Shown one piece after another: positions 16,307-36,131 of a stretch of 64,000 nt of DNA. The first letter of the stretch is position 1, and every line of letters starts with the position of its first letter. The stretch is taken from contig NZ_JAHKPJ010000004.1 in the NCBI RefSeq assembly GCF_018860345.1, positions 1 to 64,000 of the forward strand, written 5' to 3'. Source of the stretch: Psychrosphaera sp. F3M07. Lineage in GTDB: Bacteria > Pseudomonadota > Gammaproteobacteria > Enterobacterales > Alteromonadaceae. The notes beneath the pieces were generated by a model that saw only the letters and a program-made list of their open reading frames with translations, was not told the origin of the DNA and searched no databases. The position numbers and the translations under genes are program-made.

Positions 16307-16352
16307 AAGAAAACCCTTAACCTTATAGCAATGTTAAGGGTTTTCTTTTTCT
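16307..16352. terminator. Strong intrinsic terminator after ispG
   Basis: Perfect 15-bp stem AAGAAAACCCTTAAC / GTTAAGGGTTTTCTT with an 11-base loop and a T run. It overlaps the 3' end of the convergent tetR gene. Confidence 0.9.
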
Positions 16353-16936: not shown

Positions 16937-16971
16937 GCTCGTTTCTATACATAATAACGTCTTGATATAAA

Positions 16972-17016
16972 TTGTACTCATTGGTACATTAATGTCAATT
17001 GTACTAGTGAGTACAA
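16972..17016. promoter_or_regulatory. Two TetR operator-like palindromes
   Basis: At 16999-17016, TTGTACT-AGTG-AGTACAA is a perfect inverted repeat. At 16972-16989, TTGTACT is followed by an imperfect GGTACAT arm. Both lie in the divergent tetR/redoxin promoter region, 22 bases before the redoxin start. Confidence 0.65.
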
Positions 17017-17037
17017 GTTAAAAGTAGGCAACATTAT

Positions 17038-17865
17038 ATGAATTTTTCGGCTCTGTTTGTTTCTGTTTTGGGGTTAATTATATCACTGACTGGTATTGCA
17101 ATGTATTTTTCCAAGTTAATGAAAAACAAAGTACCGGTTTTCCCAATTGGGTTAATCGTATCCTTATTATTGGGAATAACCTCAGCAAGTGTGGCTATTT
17201 ATATAGCTATACCGGGCTCTGTTTTGAGTGTTATACCTGTTGTTTTGTTATCGAGTATTTCGATATTTATGGGCTGTTTTTTCTTGTGGGTTTTGTCGCA
17301 GAGAAAGACACCGGTTGGTAATATAAAAGTGCGTGTTGGTGACTCTTTAATTCCTTTTAGCATTAAGGCCGCAAATGGTCATAATTTCTCAACAAACGAA
17401 TTAATGGGTAAACGAGTTTTACTAAAGTTCTATCGTGGTTCATGGTGCCCATACTGCAGTAAAGAGTTAACTATGTTTGATGAAATGAAGCCTGAGTTTG
17501 ATAAGTATGGGGTTCAAATTGTCGCGCTTTCTGGTGACACAGTTGAACAATCTATATTTCATGCTAAAAGAGATAAGTTAAGCCATTTATTATTATCTGA
17601 CCCAGAGCTAAATGTTGTGAAACAGTATGGCGTTGAGCATCACAAAGCATTTGGTGCAGATTCAGATAATATTATGACTTTGTTAGGTTTGCCTTTCCCT
17701 AAGCCACACCAACTTAAGTTTAAATCTATGTCAATTCCTACGTCCATTTTGGTTGACGAACATGGTGTAATTCAGTGGATAGATCAATCCGACGATTATC
17801 GACTTAGAGCCAATAAAGACCGTATTATGAAAGCAATGGCACAGCATTTATCAATGGTTGATTAA
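17038..17865 (+). CDS. Membrane-anchored redoxin (AhpC/TSA-like) protein
   Basis: 275 residues. Three membrane helices (about 5-25, 33-58, 60-85) are followed by a thioredoxin-fold domain whose active site is RGSWCPYCSKE, with later GDT and IPTSILVDEHGVIQW strands. The CPYC pair suggests a thiol peroxidase or disulfide reductase. Topology is uncertain, so the redoxin could face cytoplasm or periplasm. It is divergent from tetR, with operator-like repeats in its promoter; its 3' end overlaps the convergent ABC permease gene by 15 bases. Confidence 0.8.
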   Translation: MNFSALFVSVLGLIISLTGIAMYFSKLMKNKVPVFPIGLIVSLLLGITSASVAIYIAIPGSVLSVIPVVLLSSISIFMGCFFLWVLSQRKTPVGNIKVRVGDSLIPFSIKAANGHNFSTNELMGKRVLLKFYRGSWCPYCSKELTMFDEMKPEFDKYGVQIVALSGDTVEQSIFHAKRDKLSHLLLSDPELNVVKQYGVEHHKAFGADSDNIMTLLGLPFPKPHQLKFKSMSIPTSILVDEHGVIQWIDQSDDYRLRANKDRIMKAMAQHLSMVD

Positions 17866-18672
17866 CTGCAACGCTGCAATAGATATATTGAGTGTTAATA
17901 CAGTAATAAAAATAACACACCAGTTGACTGTCGCGACAGCCTTAATCGTTTTCATATATTTGGGGCTTATCGTAGTTAAAAACATGGAATACTGGTTTAG
18001 ATTTACTTTATGAGCACGCCATACTTGTGCTATCAGGTAGACATTCAGCAACAACCACAAACTAGCAATGGACAATATGACATCTGCTTTTTCTACATTA
18101 AACAAAAAAGTGCTAAATATAAGACTGCCTAAGATTAATAAAATGATAGAAGTTAGATTGCCGTTTAAAAATAGATGAACAATGATTTTTGTATTCGGCC
18201 AAGTTATGTTCAGCTCGGTTTTGGTGGCCAGTTTATATTTTAAATAGACAATAAAAATACATGCGTTATAAAGGTAAATCGCTGCGGTTAATAGTAGGTT
18301 AGAAACGGAAACGTCAGCTTTGATATAACCCGCCCAAATAAACAAATGCAATAAAAAACTAGATTGGAAAAAGGAAACTAACAGGTTTTTGTTAAAGTCT
18401 TTGCCGAATAAATACTTAAAAAACACCAATTCATTTTTTTGCCAAACGGACATAAATAAGTATCCCTCAAATACCCCGATAAGCGTGATGATCAGCCAAC
18501 CTAAAATGTGAGAAAAGAAATGCTCAGTACCTTGGTAGATTAAATATCCAGGTAGTGGAGCTAACAATAAGAGTACAGGACTGAACAAAACTAAGCAGAA
18601 AAAAATGATGCGATATAACTGGTTTTGTTGTTTATGTATTGACTGTTTTTGACTGAATACTTGGTTAAACAT
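17851..18672 (-). CDS. Multi-pass membrane protein, probable ABC exporter permease
   Basis: About 273 residues with six or so hydrophobic helices and no soluble domain. It is called a permease mainly because it directly follows an ABC ATPase: its ATG at 18672 overlaps the ATPase stop in ATGTTTAA (8 bases), indicating coupled translation. A longer frame from TTG at 18687 is less likely. No family signature recognised; the substrate is unknown. Confidence 0.7.
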   Translation of the reverse strand: MFNQVFSQKQSIHKQQNQLYRIIFFCLVLFSPVLLLLAPLPGYLIYQGTEHFFSHILGWLIITLIGVFEGYLFMSVWQKNELVFFKYLFGKDFNKNLLVSFFQSSFLLHLFIWAGYIKADVSVSNLLLTAAIYLYNACIFIVYLKYKLATKTELNITWPNTKIIVHLFLNGNLTSIILLILGSLIFSTFLFNVEKADVILSIASLWLLLNVYLIAQVWRAHKVNLNQYSMFLTTISPKYMKTIKAVATVNWCVIFITVLTLNISIAALQLINH

Positions 18673-19225
18673 TAATGGATTCGTCAAATTCTAATATATT
18701 TTCATGATCAACAAAGATGAGTATTCGGCTATCCGCTTCAATTATATTTTTAACGGTAACGTGACTGTCTTGATCTAAACTTGCAAAGGGTTCGTCAAGG
18801 ATAAGAACGCCTGATTTTTGCGATAAGGCCCAAATAACAGAAAACTTCTTTTTAGTTCCGGTTGAGAGATTAACAAACTTTTTATACTCAAACTCTTTGA
18901 GATTTAACTGCTCAATGAGTTGGTGGTAATAATTTAGGTTAAAACTGCTATAACGCTCAAACAGCGAAGTGATTTCAGCAATAGTCAAAAATTCAGGTGG
19001 AATAATACTGTCGGAACTAAGTGAAACCAATTCTGATAAAGGCACTGCTGAATGTATTTGGCCTTCATCTGGCAACTCAAGTCCAGCTAACATCCTTAAT
19101 AACGTGGACTTACCACTGCCATTAGCACCTGTGACTTTTGTAATACGAGCAGAAAACCTATGGTTGAATAGTTTAATAACCTCTTGCTGACCATAACGCT
19201 TAACTAAAGACGTGCATTCCAACAT
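18665..19225 (-). CDS. ABC transporter ATP-binding protein, short form
   Basis: About 186 residues: Walker A GANGSGKST, Walker B VLILDEPFASLD and a signature-like NLSTGTKKKF in place of LSGGQ. The size and the degenerate signature resemble the CcmA-like and bacteriocin-exporter ATPases. The ATG at 19225 is chosen; the upstream frame to 19309 lies inside mgsA. It follows mgsA by 4 bases and overlaps the permease. Confidence 0.85.
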   Translation of the reverse strand: MLECTSLVKRYGQQEVIKLFNHRFSARITKVTGANGSGKSTLLRMLAGLELPDEGQIHSAVPLSELVSLSSDSIIPPEFLTIAEITSLFERYSSFNLNYYHQLIEQLNLKEFEYKKFVNLSTGTKKKFSVIWALSQKSGVLILDEPFASLDQDSHVTVKNIIEADSRILIFVDHENILEFDESINV

Positions 19226-19229
19226 TGAG

Positions 19230-19658
19230 TTAAATACTTCTGTCAGCGTATTCACTAAAGTCAGTTGTGTGAACTTGAGGTTCTTCAAACAGAGGGCTTT
19301 CAATAACAAAGTCGGCGGTGGCTAAATTACAAGCAACAACACAGTTATACATTGTAGATAAGCGCAATAAGGCTTTAATATCCACATCGTGTGGTTGGGG
19401 GGTCATCGGATCGGTAAAGAAAAATAGGATGTCTAATTTCCCTTCGCAAATCATAGCGCCAAGTTGTTGATCACCCCCTAAAGGGCCGCTCTTTAATGGC
19501 GTTATATTTAACTCAGGGGACGCATTTTTGATTAACTTACCCGTGGTGCCTGTACCAAATAAATTGTGTTGGGAAAGCTTGGCTTGGTGTTTTTTAGCCC
19601 ACTCTATAATCTCTGGCTTTTTTTTGTCGTGTGCGACAAGTGCAATATTTTTAACCAC
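19230..19658 (-). CDS. mgsA: Methylglyoxal synthase
   Basis: Converts dihydroxyacetone phosphate to methylglyoxal and phosphate, a glycolytic bypass during phosphate stress. 142 residues with IALVAHDKKKPEI, FGTGTTGKLI, the phosphate-binding SGPLGGDQQLGA and the catalytic FFTDPMTPQPHDVD. The start is GTG at 19658 with AGAG upstream. An ABC exporter follows 4 bases downstream, an unusual neighbour for mgsA. Confidence 0.96.
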   Translation of the reverse strand: MVKNIALVAHDKKKPEIIEWAKKHQAKLSQHNLFGTGTTGKLIKNASPELNITPLKSGPLGGDQQLGAMICEGKLDILFFFTDPMTPQPHDVDIKALLRLSTMYNCVVACNLATADFVIESPLFEEPQVHTTDFSEYADRSI

Positions 19659-19768
19659 TAAATTGTCTCTAATTTTATTATTATGTCTAATGAGATGTAA
19701 AAATGACTGTTTTTTGGTTTTAAATCAAATTTAATTCTGTACTTTCTGACAGCCATTGTTAAAATTGT

Positions 19769-19783
19769 TGAGAATAATTCTCA
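19769..19783. promoter_or_regulatory. Fur box upstream of iron ABC importer
   Basis: TGAGAAT-A-ATTCTCA is a perfect 7-1-7 inverted repeat, the core of Fur sites, 35 bases before the start of the ferric-binding protein gene. Confidence 0.8.
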
Positions 19784-19817
19784 CTTGCAACTAGTCGCAT
19801 ATTGGATCTTAATACTC

Positions 19818-20825
19818 ATGAAAAAATTTGTACTCGCACTTTTAACTTTAAGCACATTTAATGTTTTAGCCGCCGCAGACGAAACGGTTAACATCTATTC
19901 ATTTAGACAGTCATTTTTAATAGACCCAATTTTAGAAAAGTTTACAGCTGAAACAGGCATTAAAACCAAAGTGGTATTTGCCAAGAAAGGGCTAATAGAA
20001 CGAATTAAACGTGAAGGGAAATATAGCCCTGCAGATGTTGTGCTAACGTCTAACTTTAGTAAATTACTGCAATTACAAGATGAAGGATTAACATCTGAAA
20101 TCGTCAGTGAAGAAATTGATAAAAATGTACCAGCACATTTCCGTGATGATAATGGGCAGTGGATAGCCCTCACGAAACGTGTTCGCAATATTTATGCATC
20201 AAAAGACAGAGTGGCTGACGCAAAAGCGTTAACGTACGAAGCGCTAGCGGCTCCTGAATTTAAAGGAAAAGTATGTACTCGTAGTGGTAAACATCCTTAT
20301 AACTTAGGTTTAATTGCTTCTATGATTGCGCACAAAGGTGAAGCCGAAGCGCAAACTTGGTTACAAGGTGTGAAAGCTAACTTAGCTCGTAAACCTCAAG
20401 GTAACGACAGAGGCCAAGTTAAAGCCATTAAAGAAGGTTTATGTGATGTCTCTTTAGGTAACAGTTATTACTATGGCAAGATGTTAGACAATGCAGAGCA
20501 AAAACCATGGGCTGATGCGGTTAACATTGTTTACCCAAATCAAAATGACCGTGGCGCACATATTAATGTATCTGGTGCTGTAATTACCAAATACGCGCCT
20601 AATAAAGCCAATGCACTTAAGCTACTTACGTTTTTATCGTCAGAGAAAGCTCAACAGACTTATGCATCATTAAATATGGAATACCCAGTTAACCCACAAG
20701 TGAAACCTTCAGCAACGGTTCTAAGTTGGGGTGACTTTAAAGAAGATCCATTGTCATTGACTAAAGTGGCTGAATATAGAGAAGCTGCGTTAAAGTTAGT
20801 TGATAAAGTTAAATTTGATCTGTAA
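19818..20825 (+). CDS. fbpA: Fe(3+) ABC transporter periplasmic substrate-binding protein
   Basis: Captures ferric iron in the periplasm for the permease encoded downstream. Signal peptide MKKFVLALLTLSTFNVLAA, then the FutA/FbpA pattern VNIYSFRQSFLIDPIL. The paired tyrosines in GNSYYYGKML are the usual iron ligands. About 335 residues, typical. The ATG at 19818 gives a clean signal peptide; the frame from 19785 is rejected because it runs through the Fur box region. First gene of a three-gene importer. Confidence 0.93.
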   Translation: MKKFVLALLTLSTFNVLAAADETVNIYSFRQSFLIDPILEKFTAETGIKTKVVFAKKGLIERIKREGKYSPADVVLTSNFSKLLQLQDEGLTSEIVSEEIDKNVPAHFRDDNGQWIALTKRVRNIYASKDRVADAKALTYEALAAPEFKGKVCTRSGKHPYNLGLIASMIAHKGEAEAQTWLQGVKANLARKPQGNDRGQVKAIKEGLCDVSLGNSYYYGKMLDNAEQKPWADAVNIVYPNQNDRGAHINVSGAVITKYAPNKANALKLLTFLSSEKAQQTYASLNMEYPVNPQVKPSATVLSWGDFKEDPLSLTKVAEYREAALKLVDKVKFDL

Positions 20826-20867
20826 ATAGTGTTCACAAACTAAAAAAATAGATTATTTGAATTATTA

Positions 20868-22589
20868 ATGAATGAAACTGGGCCAACAGCGGTTATAAAA
20901 AAAACAACGGCTGTTGGTGACTCTTCCTTAAACACCGATCATCTGGTAAAAAAATGGGCTATGCGTTGGCCTAGTTTTAAACACATCAAAATATCAAGCT
21001 TGTTGCTTGCCTTATGCATGGCATTGCCATTATTAACCCTGCTTTTTGAAGCGTTAAGTACCCATGGTGATAGCTTTACTCATATTAAAGAAACTGTCTT
21101 AACCGACTATGTTATTAACACAGTATTGTTAATGGCTTCTGTTGGCTTTTTGGTATTACTCATTGGCATTCCATTAGCATGGTTAATTGCCAATTGTGAG
21201 TTTTGGGGGAAACGTTTTTTTAATTGGGCGCTGGTTTTACCGTTAGCAATGCCAGCTTATTTGGTGGCGTATACCTACACCGATTTGTTGGACTATGCAG
21301 GCCCGATTCAAATAACCTTACGTGATTGGTTTGGTTGGACAAGTATTAATGATTATTGGTTTTTTGATATCAGAAGCTTATCCGGTGCCGCCATTATGTT
21401 GTCCTTGGTTTTGTATCCATATGTTTATCTGATGGTCAGAGCCAGCTTTCTTGAACAAAATGCCACCTTAACTCATGCGGCAAGGGTGTTAGGTAAATCG
21501 CCTTTTAAGTGCTTTATGCAAGTCTCTTTGCCGTTGGCCAGAACCGCAATTATTGCAAGTTGTGCGTTGGCGATGATGGAAAGCATGGCTGACTTCGCCA
21601 CCGTAAATTATTTTGCTGTCAGCACATTAACCACTGCGGTTTATGATACTTGGTTAGGTCATTATGACTTAGCCAGTGCCGCTAAACTGTCGGCAATCAT
21701 GGTGATGGGTATTTTTGTTTTGTTGTTTTTAGAACAACTGCAAAAGGGCAGACAAAAAAATAGTAATGATGCCAAGGTCAGCCAACAAACCCTTAGTTAT
21801 AAACTCAGCACCAAACAAACGGTTCTGGCGGTGAGTTTTTGTAGCTTGATTTTGTTTCTTGCCTTTATTGTTCCTGTGGTCATCTTATTACAATATGCGA
21901 TTCATTATTTTGAGCAGTCTTGGACTACAGAGGTCTTTGATTTTGCACTAAACAGTGCGGGCATTGCGTTGATAACTGCGTTATTAGCCTTAGTATTATC
22001 ATTAATATTAAATTACACATATCGAGTTAAACCTACCAAAGCCCAATCGTTTTCGTTAAAAGTTGCAAGTTCTGGTTATGCGATACCAGGCACAGTAATG
22101 GCAATTGGCGTTTTAATTCCATTAACATTTTTGGACACTCAGATTAACGATATGGCTGTATGGATGGGACTGTCTGCGCCGGGATTGTTATTAAGCGGTA
22201 CTGTTATCGCGATTATATTTGCGCACTTGGTTCGATTTATTGCGATTGCCAATAAAACATTAGAATCCAGTTATGAAAAAATTAGTCCGTCATTGGACAT
22301 GGTATCTAAAACCATGGGCACCAATGGCGTTAACTTATTAAGAAAAGTCCATATACCGCTGATTCGAAAAAGCGCCTTAGTGGCCGCGCTATTAATATTT
22401 GTTGAAAGTATGAAAGAATTACCTGCGGCATTATTGTTAAGACCATTTGATTTTCAAACTCTCCCCACTTATGTATATCAGTTCGCCAGTGATGAACAAC
22501 TAGAACTAGCAGCACTTGGCGCTATTTTGATAGTATTGGTGGGCCTTATCCCTTTATTAGTATTAAATCGTTCTATTGATGCTAAATAG
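20868..22589 (+). CDS. fbpB: Fe(3+) ABC transporter permease
   Basis: 573 residues with about twelve membrane helices in two tandem binding-protein-dependent permease domains. Each has an EAA-like loop (HAARVLGKSPFKCFMQVSLP and the KTMGTNGVNLLRKVHIPLI region). The double-domain form is typical of FbpB/SfuB, which works without a partner permease. It lies between the binding protein and the ATPase and is probably co-transcribed under Fur. Confidence 0.93.
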   Translation: MNETGPTAVIKKTTAVGDSSLNTDHLVKKWAMRWPSFKHIKISSLLLALCMALPLLTLLFEALSTHGDSFTHIKETVLTDYVINTVLLMASVGFLVLLIGIPLAWLIANCEFWGKRFFNWALVLPLAMPAYLVAYTYTDLLDYAGPIQITLRDWFGWTSINDYWFFDIRSLSGAAIMLSLVLYPYVYLMVRASFLEQNATLTHAARVLGKSPFKCFMQVSLPLARTAIIASCALAMMESMADFATVNYFAVSTLTTAVYDTWLGHYDLASAAKLSAIMVMGIFVLLFLEQLQKGRQKNSNDAKVSQQTLSYKLSTKQTVLAVSFCSLILFLAFIVPVVILLQYAIHYFEQSWTTEVFDFALNSAGIALITALLALVLSLILNYTYRVKPTKAQSFSLKVASSGYAIPGTVMAIGVLIPLTFLDTQINDMAVWMGLSAPGLLLSGTVIAIIFAHLVRFIAIANKTLESSYEKISPSLDMVSKTMGTNGVNLLRKVHIPLIRKSALVAALLIFVESMKELPAALLLRPFDFQTLPTYVYQFASDEQLELAALGAILIVLVGLIPLLVLNRSIDAK

Positions 22590-26424: not shown

Positions 26425-26506
26425 TATGTTAAGTGTTTTGTTGCGAGATGGTAAAATTTTTTTAGTTTGACCAGCTAGCAAGTGCAAGTGGCTAATTTAC
26501 AGGCAT

Positions 26507-26534
26507 AAAAAAAGTAGCCAAAGCTACTTTTTTT
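26507..26534. terminator. Terminator of the CsrB-like RNA, possibly bidirectional
   Basis: Perfect 12-bp stem AAAAAAAGTAGC / GCTACTTTTTTT with a 4-base loop. It reads as a textbook terminator on the minus strand and could also end the BMT5-like gene on the plus strand. Confidence 0.9.
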
Positions 26535-26866
26535 ATATTCTCTTTGGCATCCTACCAAACAAATCCAATTTGTATGTTCATCCTTCTTGGTCCTTGCTGT
26601 CCAATCCTTAGACGATCCACTCCTTCTACTCCCAATCCTTTATAAAGCTTCCTGCCTTCGTTATAGTCCTTTTTGCTTCCTAGCCTTCCTCTCCCTAAAT
26701 TTGGTTCGACGTAATACTCGTCATCCATTTCGCATCTTGCGATCCATGTCCTTGTTGTCCTAGTTTCCTTGTCAAAAAAGCTCCTGCTTTCCTAATTAAA
26801 TCCCTTTTCGCATCCAGCGATTCCAATCCATGTTTGCTAAATCATTTAGCAGTCTCGTCGTTAAGA
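26507..26866 (-). ncRNA. csrB: CsrB-family CsrA-sequestering small RNA
   Basis: On the minus strand this stretch has no open reading frame but holds 26 GGA triplets in about 330 bases, mostly as AGGA, AAGGA or TGGAT. Several lie in short hairpin loops: AAAGC-AGGA-GCTTT, GCT-AGGA-AGC, CGC-TGGAT-GCG, ACAAA-TTGGA-TTTGT and TTTGG-TAGGATG-CCAAA. It begins just after a TATAGT-type -10, has a 5' hairpin (TGCTAAA/TTTAGCA, 26835-26851) and ends at a strong terminator. CsrB RNAs titrate the translational regulator CsrA with just such motifs. The ends are inferred; the 5' end is good to a few bases. Confidence 0.88.
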
Positions 26867-27053: not shown

Positions 27054-27163
27054 AGTAATCGAGATATGCTCTATCAAATCTCTGCATATGGTATTTGCCA
27101 TCCCAAATCAGAATCTCAGCCAAGCGAAATTAGAGCTGTCTTTGCTCATTTGAAATAATATTC

Positions 27164-28267
27164 CTATAGCTTTCTAGCCATAACATATGGGCTAATAGAA
27201 ATTACTTTTTCAGCATTTTTATTATCTTGATATGCCAGATTTAAACTAGAAGTTCTTCTTTGCATTTCTTTTTTAAGAAATTCAGGTTCGATCACTATCA
27301 TTGAATCGGAAAACCCGCTTAAATAGTTTGCGACAAAAAATGGATCTGGTTCTTTGCGGTTAAAATGGTGTGGAAAACTTAATTCTAGTTCCATCAGCCA
27401 GCAGTCATCAGTTGCAAGTTTCTTAAATTTTGCTGTATTGGCTAGAGATGTAGATTCAAAGTGGTTTTTTACCCACGTGTGACATATGGCAGAGAATTTC
27501 TCTCTTGATTCATACTCGGCTTTTTTGACCTCAAGAAATGGTTCATTTGATTTTTTTACTTCGCATAATTTTCTTATCTCAAAGTACCTAGTCGTGTTGG
27601 TGTTATGCTCATATGCCAGTACTTTTAATTGCTGATTTAAAAGTACGATCCTCTGTGGCGATAGAATCAACTTAGTAGAGTCATAATTGTCGTGAATTGA
27701 ACGGTACTTTGCAGAAAAGCTTGCTTCGCTGAATGTACAATCAAATACAAATTGCCAAGTTTGTAGTTCGTTTTTGGACGCGAAATCGTGATCCAACTGG
27801 CTATGCATGTCATAACCCATAGGGTTAAAGTCTATTTTACTTAAATATTTTGTTAGCTCTAAGTCTTCAAGTACTTCTTCCGCTTTATCAAATTCTGTCT
27901 TAAGACTTTTGTATATATGAGGGGGGATCAGTTCTGGTAGATATTCTTTAATAAACGCAAATGCAAACGCTCTTTCTTCTGACATTTCAAACTGTTCAAC
28001 AGCATCATCTTTATCTTTTTGTGATGCCCAGTAGTAAAAATATGCATTTCCCTTTTTTACTCTGGTAAGTCCCTCACCTTCATCGTCTAGCATCGAAGTT
28101 ATAATTCGATAAGCATTTTTCTTAAACGAATCAAAGGAATCTTGGCTGTCCTTCCTAAAGCTTAAAAGTCTATTTTCAATTAAGTCTTTTAATTTAATTG
28201 CATTATATTCACCGACATCAATGCTTCGTACAATTGCATTCTTAAATTCTGAATTCGGGGTTCTCAT
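27164..28267 (-). CDS. WYL-domain transcriptional regulator
   Basis: 367 residues. The N-terminal 90 look like a winged helix. The centre (about 165-240) follows the WYL pattern: SFSAKYRSI, LSPQRIVLLNQQLKVLAYE and TRYFEIRKLCEV. The C-terminus has the WCX-type FSDSMIVIEPEFLKKEMQRR. Such regulators bind nucleic-acid-like ligands and often control defence islands (BrxR/CapW type). It is divergent from the gene at 28353, with a perfect inverted repeat between them that is probably its operator; related repeats precede the other island genes. Confidence 0.8.
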   Translation of the reverse strand: MRTPNSEFKNAIVRSIDVGEYNAIKLKDLIENRLLSFRKDSQDSFDSFKKNAYRIITSMLDDEGEGLTRVKKGNAYFYYWASQKDKDDAVEQFEMSEERAFAFAFIKEYLPELIPPHIYKSLKTEFDKAEEVLEDLELTKYLSKIDFNPMGYDMHSQLDHDFASKNELQTWQFVFDCTFSEASFSAKYRSIHDNYDSTKLILSPQRIVLLNQQLKVLAYEHNTNTTRYFEIRKLCEVKKSNEPFLEVKKAEYESREKFSAICHTWVKNHFESTSLANTAKFKKLATDDCWLMELELSFPHHFNRKEPDPFFVANYLSGFSDSMIVIEPEFLKKEMQRRTSSLNLAYQDNKNAEKVISISPYVMARKL

Positions 28268-28282
28268 ATACCACTCTCTGCA

Positions 28283-28311
28283 TAAGTTAGGACACTTTAT
28301 GTCCTAACTTA
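28283..28311. promoter_or_regulatory. Probable WYL-regulator operator, perfect copy
   Basis: TAAGTTAGGAC, 7-base spacer ACTTTAT, GTCCTAACTTA: an inverted repeat with perfect 11-base arms, between the divergent WYL gene and the 28353 operon. Confidence 0.75.
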
Positions 28312-28352
28312 ATTGTAAATTACAGTTGCTGTCAATCAAAGGAGTAACTTTC

Positions 28353-28649
28353 ATGTTATCTGAACAATTGTTAAACGTAATGAGAATGTTTGCTGAACCA
28401 TCCATATATAAAGATTTTTCTACTAGCTCAGAGATTTCAAATGTTATTAATCAACTGTCACTCAACCGACTGACCTCAAATAGAGAAAAGTATGTTATTT
28501 CTTGTCTAAATATAGCTGTTTTAGATGCGCTTAAGTCGAGTTTAAGTAAGGTCAATGACCAAGAGGTTACACATGAACTTGCTTTACTTTTTAACGAATT
28601 GGAACAATTCCAGCTCATATTATTATCGACAGAAGCGGGGCGACACTAA
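28353..28649 (+). CDS. Small helical protein of unknown function
   Basis: 98 residues, predicted mostly helical, no signal or membrane helix, no family recognised. The ATG at 28353 follows AAAGGAG at a good distance; the upstream TTG at 28326 is rejected. Its stop overlaps the next start (TAATG), so it forms a two-gene operon with the membrane protein that follows. The WYL-type operator lies 42 bases upstream of its start. Confidence 0.7.
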   Translation: MLSEQLLNVMRMFAEPSIYKDFSTSSEISNVINQLSLNRLTSNREKYVISCLNIAVLDALKSSLSKVNDQEVTHELALLFNELEQFQLILLSTEAGRH

Positions 28650-29104
28650 TGACTAATAATTTACCAACGGTTGAGCAAATGCTTGAAAATAGACCTACGT
28701 TAAGTTCTTTGGTTGCCAAAATGCCAACACAAAATAATCAGCGTTTTGATAAAATAGACATGCTTACTTACGCAGGCTTAACCGCAGGTGCATTGTTGGT
28801 TGGTGTTATGTACGGAAACCAACTTATGCAATTGGATATTTTGGCTCTTTTAATTTTTGTCTCGATGCTAACGTTGCATATAATCTGGTATAAGGCTGAA
28901 GAAAAAAGGGATTTTGAACTACAAAAGCAATGGATAAATAGGCAAATAATATCATCAGAACTAAAAACACGATATCGGGAAGATATCGACTTTCAAAAAG
29001 AAAGTATCATATGGCTGATTATAAGGTTTTGTTTATATTTGTTATTCTTTGCTTTAATTATTGCTTTCATCAAATTGATATTTGATGAAAAGCCAAAGCG
29101 TTAA
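28649..29104 (+). CDS. Small membrane protein of unknown function
   Basis: 151 residues with two closely spaced helices (about 40-58 and 62-80), a charged loop and a C-terminal hydrophobic segment (about 115-142) ending in basic residues. Translationally coupled to the preceding gene by a one-base overlap. No family recognised. Small protein plus membrane protein pairs under a WYL regulator suggest, but do not prove, a defence or stress role. Confidence 0.7.
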   Translation: MTNNLPTVEQMLENRPTLSSLVAKMPTQNNQRFDKIDMLTYAGLTAGALLVGVMYGNQLMQLDILALLIFVSMLTLHIIWYKAEEKRDFELQKQWINRQIISSELKTRYREDIDFQKESIIWLIIRFCLYLLFFALIIAFIKLIFDEKPKR

Positions 29105-29107
29105 AGT

Positions 29108-29545
29108 CTAAAGTATTTCCCAACGATGAGTTGAAAAATTCCGGCAGGCTTTGCCTGCCCCAACACCCATATTTTGACCTGACGGACTTATAACCTGAAA
29201 AGTAAACTCTCTGCAAGTTTGATATAAAACAGCTTGGCTTAGATCTTCCAAGTAATCTAGTGCTTTCACATTGAATACATAGCAAGTTTCAATGTTCGTC
29301 CATTTATATTCTTGGTATGGGTCTCCTGAGCGGAAAACTCTAATGAGTTGTTCAAAATCCCAATATCCAAAAGCCTCATATTGATCAACTTTACCATCTT
29401 GATTGTCGTCAATAGCACCATTGTTAGGACCTCTGTCGTATTGTTTAACTTTGTAATATAAAGTCAGAGGTAACCCGCAAGTTCTATTCACAGTTGAGCA
29501 ACCGAAAAGGCTTATGGCTAGCAGTAGCATTATATACTTAAGCAT
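29108..29545 (-). CDS. Lipoprotein with an EF-hand-like calcium loop
   Basis: About 145 residues. The lipobox is LFGC, so it is predicted to be membrane-anchored. A single loop DDNQDGKVDQYEAF (about 46-59) has the D-x-N-x-D-G-x-V-D-x-x-E spacing of a calcium EF-hand. Four further cysteines could form disulfides. The ATG at 29545 has GAGGAAG upstream and overlaps the stop of the preceding gene in ATGCTTAA, so translation is coupled. No family recognised. Confidence 0.7.
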   Translation of the reverse strand: MLKYIMLLLAISLFGCSTVNRTCGLPLTLYYKVKQYDRGPNNGAIDDNQDGKVDQYEAFGYWDFEQLIRVFRSGDPYQEYKWTNIETCYVFNVKALDYLEDLSQAVLYQTCREFTFQVISPSGQNMGVGAGKACRNFSTHRWEIL

Positions 29546-29894
29546 TTGGCGCTTCCTCATACATAAATACTTTCAGTCCGTTGACATTGCAAAAGGTGTA
29601 AAACTGATTGATCAAGCATTGATAAATTTGAGAAAAGCTACCAACGGCCTCTAATGATTCGATTAGGTTATTCTGAAAGCTTGAAATGTCATGTATCTCA
29701 GCATTCACCTTTAAAAAGAGATACGTGGAGTTGTTACTAACAGGCTGAGTTTGAATATCAGTAATAGCAAGTCTGTGACTTAGGTTACTAGAAAACAAAA
29801 CTCCAGTTTGCGAAAGCAACTGATAGGCTGATACTCTTTTATCTGGGTTTATACTTATTAGAAAGTAATCATCTAATATTTGATTTCGGTTCAT
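29538..29894 (-). CDS. Protein of unknown function
   Basis: 118 residues, soluble, no motif recognised. First gene of a two-gene operon with the EF-hand-like lipoprotein (8-base overlap). A degenerate copy of the WYL-type inverted repeat (29939-29959) lies about 45 bases upstream, between this gene and the divergent gene at 29996. Confidence 0.65.
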   Translation of the reverse strand: MNRNQILDDYFLISINPDKRVSAYQLLSQTGVLFSSNLSHRLAITDIQTQPVSNNSTYLFLKVNAEIHDISSFQNNLIESLEAVGSFSQIYQCLINQFYTFCNVNGLKVFMYEEAPNA

Positions 29895-29938
29895 TGCCTT
29901 GCCTATTCATTATTAATTTAGATAAGCCTACAGCTTTG

Positions 29939-29959
29939 ATGAGACAAATAATGTCCTAA
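29939..29959. promoter_or_regulatory. WYL-type operator, degenerate copy
   Basis: ATGAGAC, spacer AAATAAT, GTCCTAA. The right arm is identical to the perfect copy and the left arm keeps only GAC firmly. It lies between the divergent units at 29894 (-) and 29996 (+). Confidence 0.5.
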
Positions 29960-29984
29960 TAAACTGTTAGTTTATTCATTTTTA

Positions 29985-29992
29985 GGGGGGGG
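29985..29992 (+). repeat. Eight-G homopolymer at a ribosome site
   Basis: A run of eight G directly upstream of AGT-ATG at 29996; it forms the Shine-Dalgarno region of that gene and could slip in length. Confidence 0.7.
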
Positions 29993-29995
29993 AGT

Positions 29996-30214
29996 ATGAC
30001 GAACTTAGAATTTTGCTTAATATGGGCGGGGGACCGTGTAATTCATAGCCGTGTCGAATATGAATTCCACCTCAATCAAATCGAACTCTCACTGTTAAAT
30101 GTGCAACATGACGATAATTACAGTTTTATGCATTGGTCTGCTGCATGCGAAGCTTACGAAATTAAAAATAACTTACCTTCTAATATTAAGGTTGTTTATC
30201 TTAGATTCGCATAA
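29996..30214 (+). CDS. Small protein of unknown function
   Basis: 72 residues with several Trp/His/Tyr; no motif recognised, no signal. The start is set by the G-rich ribosome site 4 bases upstream. It lies in the WYL-type island with a degenerate operator about 40 bases upstream. Confidence 0.55.
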   Translation: MTNLEFCLIWAGDRVIHSRVEYEFHLNQIELSLLNVQHDDNYSFMHWSAACEAYEIKNNLPSNIKVVYLRFA

Positions 30215-30284
30215 TAAGTGCAAACTAGTATTTATGTTTAGCCTAATTGCCATAGCTTAGTAGATAAATTAAATTCGAATTCAA

Positions 30285-30305
30285 TCAGGACTTAATCTGT
30301 TTTAA
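30285..30305. promoter_or_regulatory. WYL-type operator, degenerate copy
   Basis: TCAGGAC, spacer TTAATCT, GTTTTAA. The left arm fits; the right arm has CC replaced by TT. It lies 46 bases before the DUF2779 gene. Confidence 0.4.
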
Positions 30306-30350
30306 TGCAGGTGTAGGGTTATGGAAAGCGTTAAATTAAGGAAGTGAATT

Positions 30351-32324
30351 ATGAACCCGCCTAGATATTTATCGAAGTCACGATTTAAGTTGGCAACAGA
30401 ATGCCCAACAAAACTATTTTATACGGGGAAAAAAGAGTATCCCGATAATAAATTAAACGATCCATTTTTGTCTTCGTTAGCTGATGGGGGCTTTCAAGTG
30501 GGAGAATTGGCAAAATGTTATTTCCCTGGTGGACACGAGATTACATCACTTGATTATGAAACATCCATTCAGCAAACCAATGAGTTATTGAAACAAGAAA
30601 AGGTTGTTATTTTTGAACCTGCTATTCGATTTGGTAATTTATTTGTTCGTGTTGATATATTGGTTAAACAAGGCAATGAATATCAACTAATTGAAGTTAA
30701 GGCCAAGTCTTATTCTGCAAAAAAAGACAAAGACTTCTTAAATAAATCAGGAAAGCTAGATTCTAAGTGGAAGCCTTATATCTTTGATGTAGCGTTCCAA
30801 AAATATGTATTAAAACAGGCAATACCTAGTGCGATTGTCAGCAGTTATTTAATGATTGTAGATAAAGATATGCCTTGCCCGGTTAATGGATTGAACCAAA
30901 AATTCAAGCTAACTCGTGATGAAAAAAATAGGCGAGGGGTGGCCGTTTCTAATTCTTTAACTGAATCAGATTTATCGGTTAAAATTCTTAAAAAAGTAAA
31001 TACCGATAAAGCCGTTCAAATAGCATATGAAACAGAACTACGAACAGGAATGCCTGCTGAAGGGTTTGTTGCCAATATCGAGATATTAGCTGAGAGATAT
31101 GCCAACGATGATAAGGTGCTGCCTGTTATCGGCTCGAAATGTAAAAGTTGCGAATTTAAGAGTTCTACCGAAGAAGAAAAAAATGGTTACAAGAGCGGTT
31201 TTAAAGAATGTTGGAAAGAGCAACTTCATTGGAGAGAATCCGATTTTAATGAGCCTACAGTATTAGAAATTTCCAACTTTAGAGGATCAGACAGGTGCAT
31301 TGAAAGTGGTAAAGTTAAGCTTAAAGAATTAACGCCTGAAGACATCAACTATGAAGACTCGCCTACACCAGCTTTAACTCTAAAAGAAAGACAGTGGTTG
31401 CAAATAGAAAAAGTACAAGATAATGATTCAAGCGTTTATTTCGATGAAGACAGCATGAGAAATGTAATGGCAACATGGACCTACCCGCTGCACTTTATAG
31501 ACTTTGAAACTTGTGCGGTGGCTATTCCATTTTATAAAGGAATGTCTCCATACGAAGGAATTGCGTTCCAGTTTTCACATCATATTTTATATGCTGATGG
31601 TCAAGTTGAACATGCTGGACAGTTTTTAAGTTCAAAAGTTGGTGAGTTCCCGAACTTCAATTTCGTACGAGAATTGAAAGCTCAATTAGAAAAAGACAGT
31701 GGCACTATCTTTAGATACTCCAACCATGAGAATGCTTATCTAAACATGGTGTATCAACAATTGAAGTCATCACTTGAGCTAGATAAAGACGAGCTTTGTG
31801 ATTTCATCAAGACAATAACCAAGTCTTCCAATAACAGCAAAGACAATTGGCTGGGCGATAGAAGCATGGTTGACCAGTGGGAGCTTGTTAAGAAATATTA
31901 TTATGATCCTGCCACTGGTGGCTCAAATTCTATAAAGGCTGTACTACCTGCTATTTTAAATAGCTCTCAATTCCTTCAAGAAAAGTACGCAAAAACGATT
32001 TATGGGACTGAGGAGTTACCGAGCTTTAACTTTGAAAACAAAGTTTGGATTGAATTTGATGACGTTGGAAAAGTAAAAGACCCGTATAAATCATTACCCA
32101 AAATGTTTGCGGAAGCTTCCGAGCATGACATTGAGCTACTATCTGAGTCTGATGAATTAAATAACGGAGGTCTAGCATTAACGGCATATGCACGACTTCA
32201 GTTCACCGAAATGTCAGATTATGAAAGAAAAGAGCTTGAACACGGACTCTTGATGTATTGTGAGCTAGATACATTAGCAATGGTAATGATTCAAGAAGCT
32301 TGGCAAGCAATGATTAATGGATAA
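30351..32324 (+). CDS. DUF2779 protein: Cas4-like nuclease fused to DEDD exonuclease-like domain
   Basis: 657 residues. The N-terminal half resembles Cas4/RecB nucleases: SKSRFKLATECPTKLFY, then Asp102 (VRVDILV) and Glu115-x-Lys117 (LIEVKAK) as the PD-(D/E)XK site. Cysteines C18, C264, C267 and C287 are spaced as for a Cas4-type Fe-S cluster. The C-terminal DUF2779 part (about 380-650) begins HFIDFETC (Asp384, Glu386), has FRYSNHENAY and ends YCELDTLAMV, the layout of a DnaQ-like 3'-5' exonuclease. Probably acts on DNA ends; the biological role is unknown. An operator-like repeat lies upstream. Confidence 0.75.
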   Translation: MNPPRYLSKSRFKLATECPTKLFYTGKKEYPDNKLNDPFLSSLADGGFQVGELAKCYFPGGHEITSLDYETSIQQTNELLKQEKVVIFEPAIRFGNLFVRVDILVKQGNEYQLIEVKAKSYSAKKDKDFLNKSGKLDSKWKPYIFDVAFQKYVLKQAIPSAIVSSYLMIVDKDMPCPVNGLNQKFKLTRDEKNRRGVAVSNSLTESDLSVKILKKVNTDKAVQIAYETELRTGMPAEGFVANIEILAERYANDDKVLPVIGSKCKSCEFKSSTEEEKNGYKSGFKECWKEQLHWRESDFNEPTVLEISNFRGSDRCIESGKVKLKELTPEDINYEDSPTPALTLKERQWLQIEKVQDNDSSVYFDEDSMRNVMATWTYPLHFIDFETCAVAIPFYKGMSPYEGIAFQFSHHILYADGQVEHAGQFLSSKVGEFPNFNFVRELKAQLEKDSGTIFRYSNHENAYLNMVYQQLKSSLELDKDELCDFIKTITKSSNNSKDNWLGDRSMVDQWELVKKYYYDPATGGSNSIKAVLPAILNSSQFLQEKYAKTIYGTEELPSFNFENKVWIEFDDVGKVKDPYKSLPKMFAEASEHDIELLSESDELNNGGLALTAYARLQFTEMSDYERKELEHGLLMYCELDTLAMVMIQEAWQAMING

Positions 32325-32333
32325 TTAAATCTA

Positions 32334-32354
32334 ATAGGACATTATATGTCCTGT
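32334..32354. promoter_or_regulatory. WYL-type operator
   Basis: ATAGGAC, spacer ATTATAT, GTCCTGT. Core GGAC-N7-GTCC is intact, 62 bases before the gene at 32416. Confidence 0.6.
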
Positions 32355-32415
32355 TATTGGGGCAATATTCAGGCAAATAGATTAATTAGCCAACATAAGT
32401 TGGCAGGAATAAATA

Positions 32416-33462
32416 ATGAAAGAAATTAAATCATTGAATAAAGAAGTACTTAACCTGTTAATAAACTATTTTGAAACTGAAGTTCCTTTACTGGAAAGAA
32501 GATACAGTTGGAAGATCCCTAAGATTGATGGCTTTGTACACTCTATGGAGAAAGGTTTTTCAGCAAATGTGAAGCTAAAGTATTTTTTAAATTCATTATG
32601 GAAACAAGAAAATAAATCAGATTTTGAAGTTGCTAAAATTATTATCAAAGACTGGGGCGGGGTAAAAGGCAATAAGGACGAAACCATAAAAAAATATATC
32701 AACAGAGTTAGAAGTGGTAATTTTGAAATGCCATTTAAGGGGCTAGCAAGTTATACCAAGCTTTATTCAATTGTTGAACCAAAGCGTTTCGCGATATTTG
32801 ATGCGCGTGTAGTTGTTACTCTAAATGCTCTACAGTGCAATGCAAATATTAGTTCTGGTATCGTTTTTAATTATTTGGAAGGTAGAAATAACGTTACTGG
32901 AAATAAAGAAACAAAAAAAGGTTTTTCGCAGCAAAAAGAACATTCGGTAGCAAGTTTAGTCAAAAGAGGCTGGGAGAGAATAGCAAAAGAGGATACATAT
33001 CAGGTTTATTTGGATTACTTATTTGCGTGTATTAAGCATAATCCCGACTGGAAGTTATACGAACTTGAGATGGTTTTATTTGCCAACGCAGAAGAAGTAG
33101 CGAAAAAAGCAATAGAAAACATACAGGGGAACGAGAAAACTATATGCAATCTTGAACAAGCTAAAGCTAAAGAAAAAGTTAGCGCTAAGAAGCGCACTCA
33201 CCATCAGGCTCTGTTTGAACATGTGACTAAACAAAATCTGTTATCAGAGAAATTTAGTTACTCAAAAGTATTATCTATTGCACAATTAATTTTAGATGGA
33301 ATCTCAAAATCAGGACAACATTACGCAGCACTGAAATTCATACAAAATTACTGTATAGCTCTTGATGAGAGTATCTCAAATCAGCTAAAGGCAGTTTCTG
33401 ATCCTAGGCAAATATCAGCTCTAGAAGCATTAAAAAATAATTGTGAATTTAAGTTGGCGTAG
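32416..33462 (+). CDS. Protein of unknown function, possibly glycosylase-like N-terminus
   Basis: 348 residues, soluble, Lys-rich. A helical N-terminal half contains LYSIVEPKRFAIFDARVVVT (about 115-135), which faintly resembles the metal-binding/helical region of DNA-glycosylase-like proteins; I cannot confirm this. The C-terminal third (about 255-345) is helical after a basic linker. No catalytic motif assigned. It is preceded by a clear operator-like repeat, so it belongs to the WYL island regulon. Confidence 0.6.
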   Translation: MKEIKSLNKEVLNLLINYFETEVPLLERRYSWKIPKIDGFVHSMEKGFSANVKLKYFLNSLWKQENKSDFEVAKIIIKDWGGVKGNKDETIKKYINRVRSGNFEMPFKGLASYTKLYSIVEPKRFAIFDARVVVTLNALQCNANISSGIVFNYLEGRNNVTGNKETKKGFSQQKEHSVASLVKRGWERIAKEDTYQVYLDYLFACIKHNPDWKLYELEMVLFANAEEVAKKAIENIQGNEKTICNLEQAKAKEKVSAKKRTHHQALFEHVTKQNLLSEKFSYSKVLSIAQLILDGISKSGQHYAALKFIQNYCIALDESISNQLKAVSDPRQISALEALKNNCEFKLA

Positions 33463-33527
33463 GCATAAATTACTCAAGATTACCTACATACTTTCACACG
33501 AAGTTTTAATATTTTTTTTCTAGGATA

Positions 33528-33551
33528 AGCTCCTACGTAAAATTAGGAGCT
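33528..33551. other. Hairpin with buried Shine-Dalgarno and start-stop mini ORF
   Basis: AGCTCCTA / TAGGAGCT with an 8-base loop; one mismatch then GAT/ATC extend the arms to 33524-33555. The right arm contains AGGAG, followed by ATG-AAC-TAA at 33556-33564. There is no T run, so it is not a terminator. The rest of 33463-33749 shows only an operator-like repeat. Confidence 0.45.
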
Positions 33552-33663
33552 GATCATGAACTAAGTGATTAACCTCAATAATATTTCTAGATATCTTCCC
33601 CAAAAAAACAATTTATTGATAAGTCCAACTGAACTTAATCAACTTCAAGTTAGTAATTTCAAA

Positions 33664-33684
33664 TTGAGACGTTATATGTCCTAT
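33664..33684. promoter_or_regulatory. WYL-type operator, degenerate copy
   Basis: TTGAGAC, spacer GTTATAT, GTCCTAT. It lies 65 bases before the lipoprotein gene at 33750. Confidence 0.5.
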
Positions 33685-33749
33685 AAGTAAGGTAACTTAC
33701 AGTGCTACTCAAGAAAACTTTAAGATAGTAATCATTTAAGGAAATAAAG

Positions 33750-35282
33750 ATGGTAAAAAGCAAAATGAAATTAGCACTTTCACTAGCGTTGGGTTTAGTT
33801 CTAAGTGGTTGTGGAGGCAGTTCTTTTGACGATGAGAATGTATCGGCAGCGTCATCGGAAAAAATATTAACTGTTACAGGTAAAGCCATAGACGGCTATA
33901 TTGTCGGCGGAACGGTATTTTTGGATATTAACGGCAATGGTAACGCTGAACCAAATGAACCGCAAAAAGAAACCGAAGTAGGTGGTGATTACACCTTAAA
34001 TATCTCTGAAGAAGATGCTGAGTGTTTAGCATATTCTGCAATCATTGTAGATGTGCCTGTAGGTGCATGGGATGAAGGCTCTGAGGATGAAAATGTTGCA
34101 GCTCATGAAGTAACTGACCCTTATCAAATTGTATTGCAACCTACTTTTAAAGCAATCACAGAGGAAGACTTCACTAATGGTTTAGTTAGAAATATATCTC
34201 CTTTAACTACCGTTGTATGGGAAGCGATAGAACGAAGTTATCCACCATTTGCTGAAAATAAAGGTAACAACCCTAATGACAGCGAAACTAATGCTAAACA
34301 TTGCCACTACTTGAAAAAACATGATGAAGCGGTTCAAGAGTTAAAACAAGAGATTGAAGACGCTGTTGTTGGCTTAGTCCAGTTTTATAATTTGTCTGCA
34401 GATCAAATGTATGCAGATTTCATAGCTGATAAAGACTCTGATGCATTTCATGTCGCACAAGACATTATGAAAGGGCTAAAGGCAGCTTATAAACGTAAAA
34501 CGGATTTAAGAGAACAATATTCCGATTATCAAAATGCTGAAATTCGAGTATTTGTACATAGAAACCCAGAGCTAGACGAATATTTTCAAGTTGATAACGG
34601 CTGGTATCGTGACGAAATAGTATTTCTAGGTACTGAAGATTTGGTCGAATTTAGCAAGCTACAAGATACTGACAAGCTGGATGAAGTAGATTTTATCAGC
34701 AGTAAGTTTCACGAGTTAGGTCAAGAGTGGAATGAGCAAGATAAAAGTGGGTGGTTAAGTGTTAGAAAGGACGCTTACAGAGAAATGAATGGTACGTATC
34801 GCTGTGCTAAAAACGAAAGAGTAAGCTTCGATGTTAATGGTATTCATTATGAACTAGGTAATAGCTCAGACTCAGCCACGCTGGCTAACTCATTTGAAGA
34901 ATGCAACTTTGATGATTTTAGTTCTCCTTATGAGAAAAACTATCACCTTAGATATACAGAAGGTGAGGCGTCATACAGTGCAGCGTTTTATTTTAGAGCT
35001 GAGCAAGCTCGCTTTACAGAACTAGCTGACTGGAAAGAGTTTACTGATAACCCCGAATTCAACGCACAAGACATGATAGATACCCTTATTTTAACGCCTT
35101 ATAAATGGGAAGATGAAGTGACTATTGATACCGCATATTGGCGTAAACGCAAAGAGGAACCCGGTGTTCAAATAGATATCGATAATGATAACAACTGGCA
35201 GAGAGCTACTAAGCAAGATGATGGCACAACATTATATGAATGCAGTTCGGATGGTGAAAACTGGACAGAATGTACTGACTAA
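33750..35282 (+). CDS. Large acidic lipoprotein of unknown function
   Basis: 510 residues. Lipobox VLSGC, then a Ser/Asp linker and a Gly-rich beta segment (about 48-75: GKAIDGYIVGGTVFLDINGNG) like the Cna-B/SdrD-type opening of many marine lipoproteins; it includes a D-x-N-x-N-G calcium-loop-like pattern. The remainder is acidic and unrecognised. GGAAA lies before the ATG. Preceded by an operator-like repeat, it is the last gene of the island. Confidence 0.75.
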   Translation: MVKSKMKLALSLALGLVLSGCGGSSFDDENVSAASSEKILTVTGKAIDGYIVGGTVFLDINGNGNAEPNEPQKETEVGGDYTLNISEEDAECLAYSAIIVDVPVGAWDEGSEDENVAAHEVTDPYQIVLQPTFKAITEEDFTNGLVRNISPLTTVVWEAIERSYPPFAENKGNNPNDSETNAKHCHYLKKHDEAVQELKQEIEDAVVGLVQFYNLSADQMYADFIADKDSDAFHVAQDIMKGLKAAYKRKTDLREQYSDYQNAEIRVFVHRNPELDEYFQVDNGWYRDEIVFLGTEDLVEFSKLQDTDKLDEVDFISSKFHELGQEWNEQDKSGWLSVRKDAYREMNGTYRCAKNERVSFDVNGIHYELGNSSDSATLANSFEECNFDDFSSPYEKNYHLRYTEGEASYSAAFYFRAEQARFTELADWKEFTDNPEFNAQDMIDTLILTPYKWEDEVTIDTAYWRKRKEEPGVQIDIDNDNNWQRATKQDDGTTLYECSSDGENWTECTD

Positions 35283-35302
35283 CGTGTAAGTATACTCAGT
35301 TG

Positions 35303-35343
35303 AAAATGTCAGTAACGACCCTATGACTAGTTATTGACATTTT
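35303..35343 (+). terminator. Probable terminator of lipoprotein gene
   Basis: AAAATGTCAGTAAC pairs with GTTATTGACATTTT (one G-T pair); the T tract is broken. Confidence 0.6.
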
Positions 35344-35506
35344 ATTTATTAACTCGCCTTAGAAAACTACTGGTATCTATTTTATTACCCATAAAATTTT
35401 GTAACTCATTTATGTCCCGAAATACCTTAGCAATTCTAAAATTTGACAAGCCTCTTTGTTCAAGGAGCAGACGTTGAAAGACTAAAGAGGTATTGTATAT
35501 ATTTAA
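35342..35506 (-). pseudogene. C-terminal gene remnant
   Basis: An open frame of 54 residues with protein-like composition (QRLLLEQRGLSNFRIAKVF, then NKIDTSSFLRRVNK before the stop) but no usable start: a stop codon lies immediately upstream and the only ATG is near the end. It reads like the tail of a decayed gene, family unknown. Confidence 0.35.
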
Positions 35507-35597
35507 TTAACGTATGTTTCAATAAGTACACTAAAATACAAAAATCATTGACGATATTGATTTTGAGTTCTTTAGTAAATCCGACAGGAGTTAATTC

Positions 35598-35825
35598 ATA
35601 AAAAAGAGCACAATTTCACTAGGTATTAAGGGTATTGAGCCGCTATTACTAACCTTCTTAAAAGACGAACCCACTTTTAACTCTATAGAAGACTCATTCA
35701 CCCATGTGGTTAAAACTAGCGTATTAAAAGAAAATCAGGTTGCAACATCTGTAATCAATATTCAAGGTAACTATTTGACTTCCAAAGGTACTTTAGAGTT
35801 AGACAATGAAGCTAGCTATAAATAA
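35598..35825 (+). pseudogene. Small ORF lacking a start codon (ATA in place of ATG)
   Basis: A 75-codon frame begins at ATA, 7 bases after CAGGAG, and reads KKSTISLGIKGIEPLLLTF onward to a TAA. A ribosome site in the right place suggests a former ATG that mutated. No family recognised. The remaining bases 35826-36131 show no gene. Confidence 0.35.
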
Positions 35826-36131
35826 CGGAAAATTGGTTAAAAAATCTAATCCATAGTTAATTTATTCATTTTTATTAAACTGACTTTAAATTTATTGGGG
35901 AGTAGATTTATGGCTTTCTACTTATCGTTTTACCCTAGTTTTTTCTGCTTCATTACAATTTATAAACTTTGATTTTGATATTCCACTAAACCGTATTATA
36001 AGCGACGACTTTCCCTGCATATCGTAAATTCTACATGGCGCTTTTGCTAGATTCACATATACTCCTCTATTCAAGAATGTGTTGAAAAAGCGCATAAAAA
36101 TCAATTTGCTAAATATAACTGAGGACTCGGT

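Follow-up and report, generated by a model that had tools for sequence, protein, structure and literature searches.

The palindromic DNA sites considered here lie in a 64,000-nucleotide stretch of Psychrosphaera sp. F3M07 (positions 1 to 64,000 of contig NZ_JAHKPJ010000004.1, forward strand), hereafter the window, within an island of ~8.9 kb that also encodes a regulator of the WYL type. On the strength of genome comparison, the palindromes are very probably operators of the island's own WYL protein, which would make the island one local regulon with several operators. What has been computed is that the sites exist, exceed chance, are conserved and go with the WYL gene, and that the island is an insertion. 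The WYL protein is a distant relative of the repressors BrxR and CapW, and its predicted mode of action is discussed after the sites themselves.

Palindromic Sites in the Window and the Genome

A preliminary description of this DNA had placed five inverted repeats at positions 28283, 29939, 30285, 32334 and 33664, and all five are present with the letters it gave. The repeat at 28283 is, as described there, perfect as 11+7+11, and is better described as 12+5+12, with the composition TAAGTTAGGACA N5 TGTCCTAACTTA. It is the strongest site, and the real unit of the palindromes is GACA-N5-TGTC. Both half-sites (GAC...GTC) are kept at 28283, 29939, 32334 and 33664; at 30285 one half is kept and the other is mostly lost. 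Operator 1 (28283–28311) is this perfect palindrome; it separates wyl from the divergently oriented orf98, and its GGAC and GTC core columns are invariant across seven aligned loci, two of which are near-identical. Operator 2 (29939–29959) lies between the divergent genes orf118 and orf72, operator 4 (32334–32354) upstream of a gene of variable identity, termed the slot gene, and operator 5 (33664–33684) upstream of lipo510. In four intergenic alignments with relatives, the operator position is conserved and the neighbouring bases drift, the positions of operators 2 and 4 being kept.

The strength of the sites was scored with two matrices trained on 19 or 54 distinct sites from other genomes, with the window sites excluded; the training sites had been picked by their GAC...GTC core, which inflates the core weights. 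With both matrices the four sites that keep two half-sites rank 1 to 4 in the window, with scores of 21.1–26.5 (24.9 and 23.8 for operator 2, 26.5 and 21.1 for operator 4, 24.0 and 21.2 for operator 5). The next window position scores 11.4 or 11.6, leaving the four sites 9.5 to 12.5 bits higher, and shuffled sequences give maxima with a 95th percentile of about 15. Operator 3 (30285–30305) is degenerate. It scores 7.9 or 6.1, at rank 10 or 12, and by sequence alone is indistinguishable from chance. As an independent operator it was rejected because its score is at noise level, and it is kept only as a positional relative of intact sites, aligning gap-free with an intact operator upstream of the gene for a DUF2779 protein in five relatives (three near-identical to each other). 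Our interpretation is that this operator is weak or has decayed.

The whole genome (3,873,366 bases in 29 contigs) was scanned with the reversed motif as control. There are 60 matches of RGACN7GTCY and 69 of its control, and four of the 60 fall inside the 5.4 kb that holds the five sites, where 0.08 are expected. Of RGACAN5TGTCY there are eight matches against four in the control, three of the eight inside the island, and TAGGACAN5TGTCCTA with at most two mismatches is found five times, three of them here. With at most three mismatches there is no genome-wide excess (83 versus 95 in the control). Eight off-island matches were examined, namely all five of RGACAN5TGTCY and three others, covering 7 of the 56 off-island matches of RGACN7GTCY. 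Four of these are inside open reading frames (ORFs), one of them also 190 bases upstream of another ORF; for three, no ORF of at least 80 amino acids contains the match or starts within 200 bases downstream of it; and one sits 2 bases before a start codon. With the motif at no more than chance frequency off the island, a genome-wide regulon was rejected. The motif is not equally frequent elsewhere but concentrated in the island, and the local regulon of the preliminary description withstands this comparison.

Recurrence of the Sites in Related Loci

Genomes of the same family were searched with the WYL sequence, and 18–20 kb were taken around the match in each of 13 other genomes. Relatives of the WYL protein are found in 14 of 246 such genomes, its own included. 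Around them recurs a module, of varying completeness, that consists of the WYL gene, orf98, a membrane-like protein, lipo150, orf118, orf72, the DUF2779 gene and the slot gene. The motif occupies the gaps of the module in the four closest relatives (68–78% identity) and in most of the more distant ones. When palindromic dyads were counted, with no motif set beforehand, in 12 related loci, the window being left aside, GACA-N5-TGTC ranked first, with 28 occurrences in module promoters (10,655 nucleotides) versus 5 outside (14,723 nucleotides), and GGAC-N7-GTCC second, with 12 versus 1. In 13 chosen modules, including that of the window, a site is present at 55 of 76 unit starts versus 8 of 133 outside, and the reversed control at 1 of 76 and 0 of 133. 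Because the 13 modules were delimited by hand and come from related loci, the p-value attached to the unit-start count is too optimistic. The dyad and unit-start counts did not include four distant WYL loci (L023, L026, L027 and L028), two divergent ones (L038 and L051) or loci that duplicate others in the set (L029–L032, L034, L037 and L059).

As a check on the hand-chosen modules, all WYL loci were counted once each with no drawn borders. These 19 loci have 63 sites at up to 6 kb from the WYL gene (222,724 nucleotides) versus 5 farther away (200,755 nucleotides), and the reversed control gives 5 near versus 3 beyond 6 kb. A pattern-based, non-exhaustive scan of the species genome collection with a DUF2779 alignment yielded 36 loci. 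The 12 of these 36 that have a WYL match carry 56 sites, a few inside ORFs, where about 4 are expected from Markov shuffles; the numbers per locus are 8, 8, 6, 6, 4, 6, 5, 4, 3, 2, 0 and 4, and among the 12 are several that are nearly identical or that already occur in the family-genome set. The two poorest, L038 and L051, also have the most divergent WYL matches. The other 24 loci, with no WYL match, show no excess of sites (8 versus about 11 expected), though many are short contigs and a WYL gene may lie beyond the contig end. Proximity to the WYL gene, placement at unit starts and the lack of an excess where no WYL gene is matched together support the WYL-linked local regulon that the preliminary description had proposed.

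The WYL Protein and Predicted Promoters

The WYL regulator is a protein of 367 amino acids encoded on the minus strand (27164–28267), with a PADLOC WYL match at 8.3e-7. Its structure model has a mean predicted local distance difference test (pLDDT) score of 82.3, and the closest solved structures are BrxR, CapW, DriD and PafBC. The model has the arrangement of winged helix-turn-helix (wHTH), WYL domain and C-terminal extension, which means a shared architecture, not close kinship. Against BrxR (7qfz) it aligns with Z 12.5 over 231 residues at a root-mean-square deviation (rmsd) of 13.6, the domains being arranged differently; CapW gives Z 12.2 and DriD 11.8, and with DriD and PafBC within 1 of BrxR the ranking is a tie. 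A protein search of its own genome (G000) gave one match and no second relative.

The predicted wyl promoter (28306–28335, minus strand) consists of TTGACA (28335–28330), an 18-base spacer and TAAGTT (28311–28306), which puts its -10 box inside operator 1. Its TTGAC is invariant in the seven aligned loci, reading TTGACA in six and TTGACG in L033. The predicted DUF2779 promoter (30247–30275, plus strand; TTGCCA N17 TAAATT) is followed by the degenerate operator. Of 56 pairs of unit and site in all, 15 have their best predicted -10 at 11–20 bp upstream of the centre of the operator, versus 5.0 in shuffles.

From these features we infer DNA binding by the WYL protein, repression rather than activation, a ligand, and a role in defence. 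The island's own WYL protein would bind the palindromes as a dimer that reads GACA half-sites separated by 5 bp. Occupied operators would block the wyl promoter, whose predicted -10 lies within operator 1, along with the majority of the remaining island units, repressing all of them jointly. The dimer would be released when the WYL domain binds its ligand, which is probably single-stranded DNA (ssDNA) or another nucleic acid arising from invasion or DNA damage, and the island would then be turned on as one unit. Its products would be a predicted two-headed DNA nuclease (DUF2779), the exchangeable slot protein and envelope-type proteins. Given these products, the island probably acts as an inducible system against invaders or for DNA processing.

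Alternative Explanations

Several results weigh against a WYL-controlled island regulon as set out above. The preliminary description had given a site to every transcription unit; this holds for all units but that of DUF2779, whose promoter carries the degenerate site alone. In the related modules 21 of the 76 unit starts have no site, and the 6-kb zone around the WYL gene is empty of sites in 3 of the 19 WYL loci (L023, L028 and L051). In that zone L026 has one site and L038 two, one inside an ORF and the other about 55 bases upstream of an unrelated ORF. The Pfam WYL match of the regulator (15.7 bits) is below the cut-off of 21.8, and BrxR was matched only at E 0.014 in the sequence search of the PDB. 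A PF13280 search of the genome at E 0.001 found nothing, not even this protein, so that the genome may hold other divergent WYL proteins. For four of the seven best predicted promoters of the window, no operator coincides with the -10 or comes shortly after it, and the mean predicted promoter score (6.01) is barely above that of shuffles (5.86); promoter geometry therefore gives repression modest support. As for defence, no named system was found in the island with PADLOC-DB 2.0.0.

That the WYL protein binds the sites as an activator upon sensing ssDNA, in the manner of DriD or PafBC, is unlikely, though some observations favour it. Foldseek E-values place the PafBC and DriD chains above BrxR, the C-domain of DriD aligns at an rmsd of 4.1–4.4, lower than BrxR, and most predicted promoters of the window show no operator at the -10. 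Repression is favoured by the clustering of -10 boxes upstream of operator centres and by the predicted wyl -10 inside its operator; the ranking of BrxR and CapW at the top by Z points the same way, though DriD is near enough for a tie. It is very improbable that the palindromes serve another, host-encoded regulator with the WYL gene as a passenger. The five RGACAN5TGTCY matches off the island would suit such a regulator, but the motif is at chance genome-wide, the off-island matches examined are not placed as operators, and DUF2779 loci with no WYL match have no excess of sites. Intrinsic terminators, mobile repeats or chance hairpins are scarcely credible. The palindrome at 32334 is terminator-like on the minus strand, but two palindromes stand between divergent genes, where no terminator is needed, site numbers are far above shuffles and controls, and the outer arms vary from site to site around a constant core. 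Terminators and repeats were rejected on the counts at unit starts and by distance from the WYL gene, set against their controls.

A different matter is what the regulon is for. A role in defence is somewhat favoured, and there is an appreciable, if lesser, chance that the regulon is real and the island instead works in DNA repair, in uptake or in processing linked to transfer. The lipoprotein-like and membrane-like proteins of the island would suit these other functions, as would the lack of a named PADLOC system. Against them stand the patchy distribution among family genomes, the empty sites within the genus, near-identical modules across genera and some PADLOC-like neighbours in relatives. 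More specifically, and tentatively, the island could be an undescribed mobile and inducible immunity island with a fixed chassis and an exchangeable slot, released when the WYL protein senses invader nucleic acid. Its chassis might then comprise the WYL sensor-repressor, the repeated operators, the leader of the slot gene, DUF2779 and the lipoprotein-like and membrane-like proteins, and the slot might supply DNA-acting effectors (the orf348 family, an OGG-like glycosylase and others).

The Island and Its Mobility

The island (27090–36020, boundaries approximate to some tens of bases) interrupts DNA that is continuous in two other genomes of the genus. The window up to 27055 and from 36122 matches adjoining stretches of G077, and up to 27088 and from 36026 adjoining stretches of G036. 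Because the flanks adjoin in these two genomes, both with no WYL match, the ~8.9 kb are an insertion, and the insertion point is between housekeeping-type genes. A module is also present in G108 of the same genus, where the adjoining genes do not correspond to those flanking the island of the window. Modules with their flanks are 99.9% identical over ~16 kb between Colwellia chukchiensis and Pseudoalteromonas luteoviolacea (L029 and L030, both 6006–21968), and that of P. lipolytica (L031, 5775–21963) is 97% identical to those over ~16 kb. Identities of 97–99.9% across genera indicate that the module moves between genera by recent transfer.

Beside the island, the stretches 26493–26625 and 26778–26865 of the window recur at several places in same-genus genomes, as a dispersed repeat would. 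Farther off, at 16307–16347, is a perfect 15-bp inverted repeat with an 11-base spacer, unrelated to the operators.

DUF2779 and the Smaller Genes

The DUF2779 protein (30351–32324, plus strand; 657 amino acids) matches PF11074 at 77.9 bits against a cut-off of 23.3. It is predicted to join a Cas4-like PD-(D/E)XK part with four cysteines to an RNase H-like DEDD exonuclease part, and its Cas4 matches in PADLOC are weak. Residues D102, E115, K117, C264, C267, C287, D384, E386, D508 and D640 are invariant in 32 of 32 sequences, and C18 is kept in 31, with a gap in the other. Their roles are assigned from sequence motifs. The protein resembles the family in its match and in its invariant predicted catalytic residues. 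PMC3985635 treats the family as a predicted fusion of PD-(D/E)XK-like (DUF83) and RNase H-like domains, presumed to be a 3'-5' exonuclease. The literature searched holds no described function for DUF2779, and none of the papers found to mention it is presented as a study of a WYL regulon or defence role, which sets the island protein apart. Phage records contained no relative, plasmids gave 29 records, all below 60% identity, and a sequence search of the PDB with DUF2779 returned nothing useful.

Several smaller genes accompany it in the island. The first, orf98 (28353–28649, plus strand, ATG at 28353), has relatives at 33–63% identity and no family was found for it. TM151 (28649–29104, plus strand) is membrane-protein-like by its hydrophobic segments, recognised by eye, with relatives at 31–52%. 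On the minus strand, lipo150 (29108–29560), lipoprotein-like by a lipobox seen by eye, and orf118 (29538–29894) both recur in relatives. The gene orf72 (29996–30214, plus strand) has relatives at 67–78% in the close clade; a run of eight Gs stands just before its start, in the ribosome-site region (29985–29992), and could vary in length and so tune expression. Last is lipo510 (33750–35282, plus strand), also lipoprotein-like by a lipobox seen by eye, for which no family was found; relatives at 42% occur in two other modules (L021 and L035).

PADLOC matches in the island are limited to WYL, the weak Cas4 and a weak BrxA match of 37 residues. Ten hand-picked proteins from the relatives' loci include an IetA-like protein, a PD-T4-6-like kinase and two partial PDC matches, and other matches there (exonuclease I, a UvrD-type helicase) are probably housekeeping. 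In G105 (L020, 9439–16092) the WYL protein belongs to the same family (43%) and the operators recur. They are found there with an IetA-like AAA protein, a 5'-nucleotidase and relatives of orf118 and lipo150, and no DUF2779 relative is present in the stretch examined. From this locus, the WYL regulator may serve several effector sets.

The Slot Gene and Its Leader

The slot gene of the window is orf348 (32416–33462, plus strand), a member of a divergent family in which W80, G81, K115, D129 and R131 are invariant in 11 aligned sequences. Most modules carry a member of this family in the slot. In G039 the slot, preceded by the leader that also precedes orf348, holds an OGG-like protein of PF21790 (1.6e-20). 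This family is rare, being found in 1 of 196 family genomes, within this island type, and in 2 of 398 genomes of a phylum draw at E 0.001; the one over the cut-off is the same genome as the family match. Orf348 itself has no PF21790 match. K115, D129 and the WGG of orf348 resemble the OGG-like protein by eye, and its identification as a glycosylase was rejected, as profile comparisons were non-significant; the comparison with the OGG profile aligned the K/D motif at a probability of 1%. The structure model of orf348 is poor (pLDDT 61.5), its fold search gave nothing at E 0.001, and sequence searches of the PDB gave nothing useful. For the slot protein of L035, a GIY-YIG domain is read by eye only, and Pfam gives a weak RecT match instead. 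Relatives of orf348 also adjoin or lie near distant WYL relatives in L027 (8023–8946) and L023 (7694–8896), with no DUF2779 in the stretches fetched of either.

Upstream of the slot gene is a conserved leader (32360–32418, plus strand) with a 6-bp hairpin directly before the ribosome site. It is 82–96% identical over 24–87 bases in relatives (L016, 15628–15678; L017, 4703–4749; L018, 4490–4535; L019, 6916–6939), including G039 (L018), whose slot gene is of another family. This pattern suggests that the leader may be an RNA element or a point at which slot genes are swapped. It also has short matches in G048, G305 and G370, which stand in different contexts and could be due to chance.

Comparison with Known WYL Regulators and Significance

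The closest described parallels are BrxR and CapW. According to PMC9122601 and PMC9122589, BrxR operators have repeats of 10–11 bp with a 5-bp spacer, and the BREX island of pEFER has a second BrxR site, R-BOX2, for two R-BOXes in all. BrxR of Escherichia fergusonii pEFER and Acinetobacter NEB394 is likewise a WYL protein with palindromes beside its own gene and a 5-bp gap, and the predicted architecture of the island protein is similar. The 12+5+12 palindrome beside wyl matches the half-site and gap of BrxR in geometry only, with its own core kept in relatives. Unlike the two R-BOXes reported there for pEFER, the island has four strong sites and one weak one. Its gene set also differs from BREX, no BREX system being matched, and sequence similarity to BrxR is very weak. 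CapW of CBASS is a WYL repressor with a palindrome that overlaps the promoter -10 (PMC9122588), as is predicted for the wyl promoter, and its architecture resembles that of the island model; it controls a CBASS promoter, whereas no CBASS protein was matched in the island. DriD and PafBC share a similar predicted wHTH-WYL architecture in structure searches, and the solved DriD structures are ssDNA-bound according to their PDB titles. Those titles name DriD and PafBC transcription activators, not local island repressors.

The proposed mechanism is of the known WYL-repressor kind; what is new is the set of genes and the number of their operators, and the literature searched holds no description of this island. 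A WYL-type operator is repeated through the whole island, versus the two reported for pEFER. The operator marks uncharacterised genes as members of one unit, both in the window and in relatives whose gene content differs, and DUF2779, a predicted double nuclease, becomes linked to WYL-type sensing. The insertion, the movement between genera, the predicted nuclease and the varying slot suggest a mobile, inducible DNA-targeting unit, perhaps one that defends against invading DNA.

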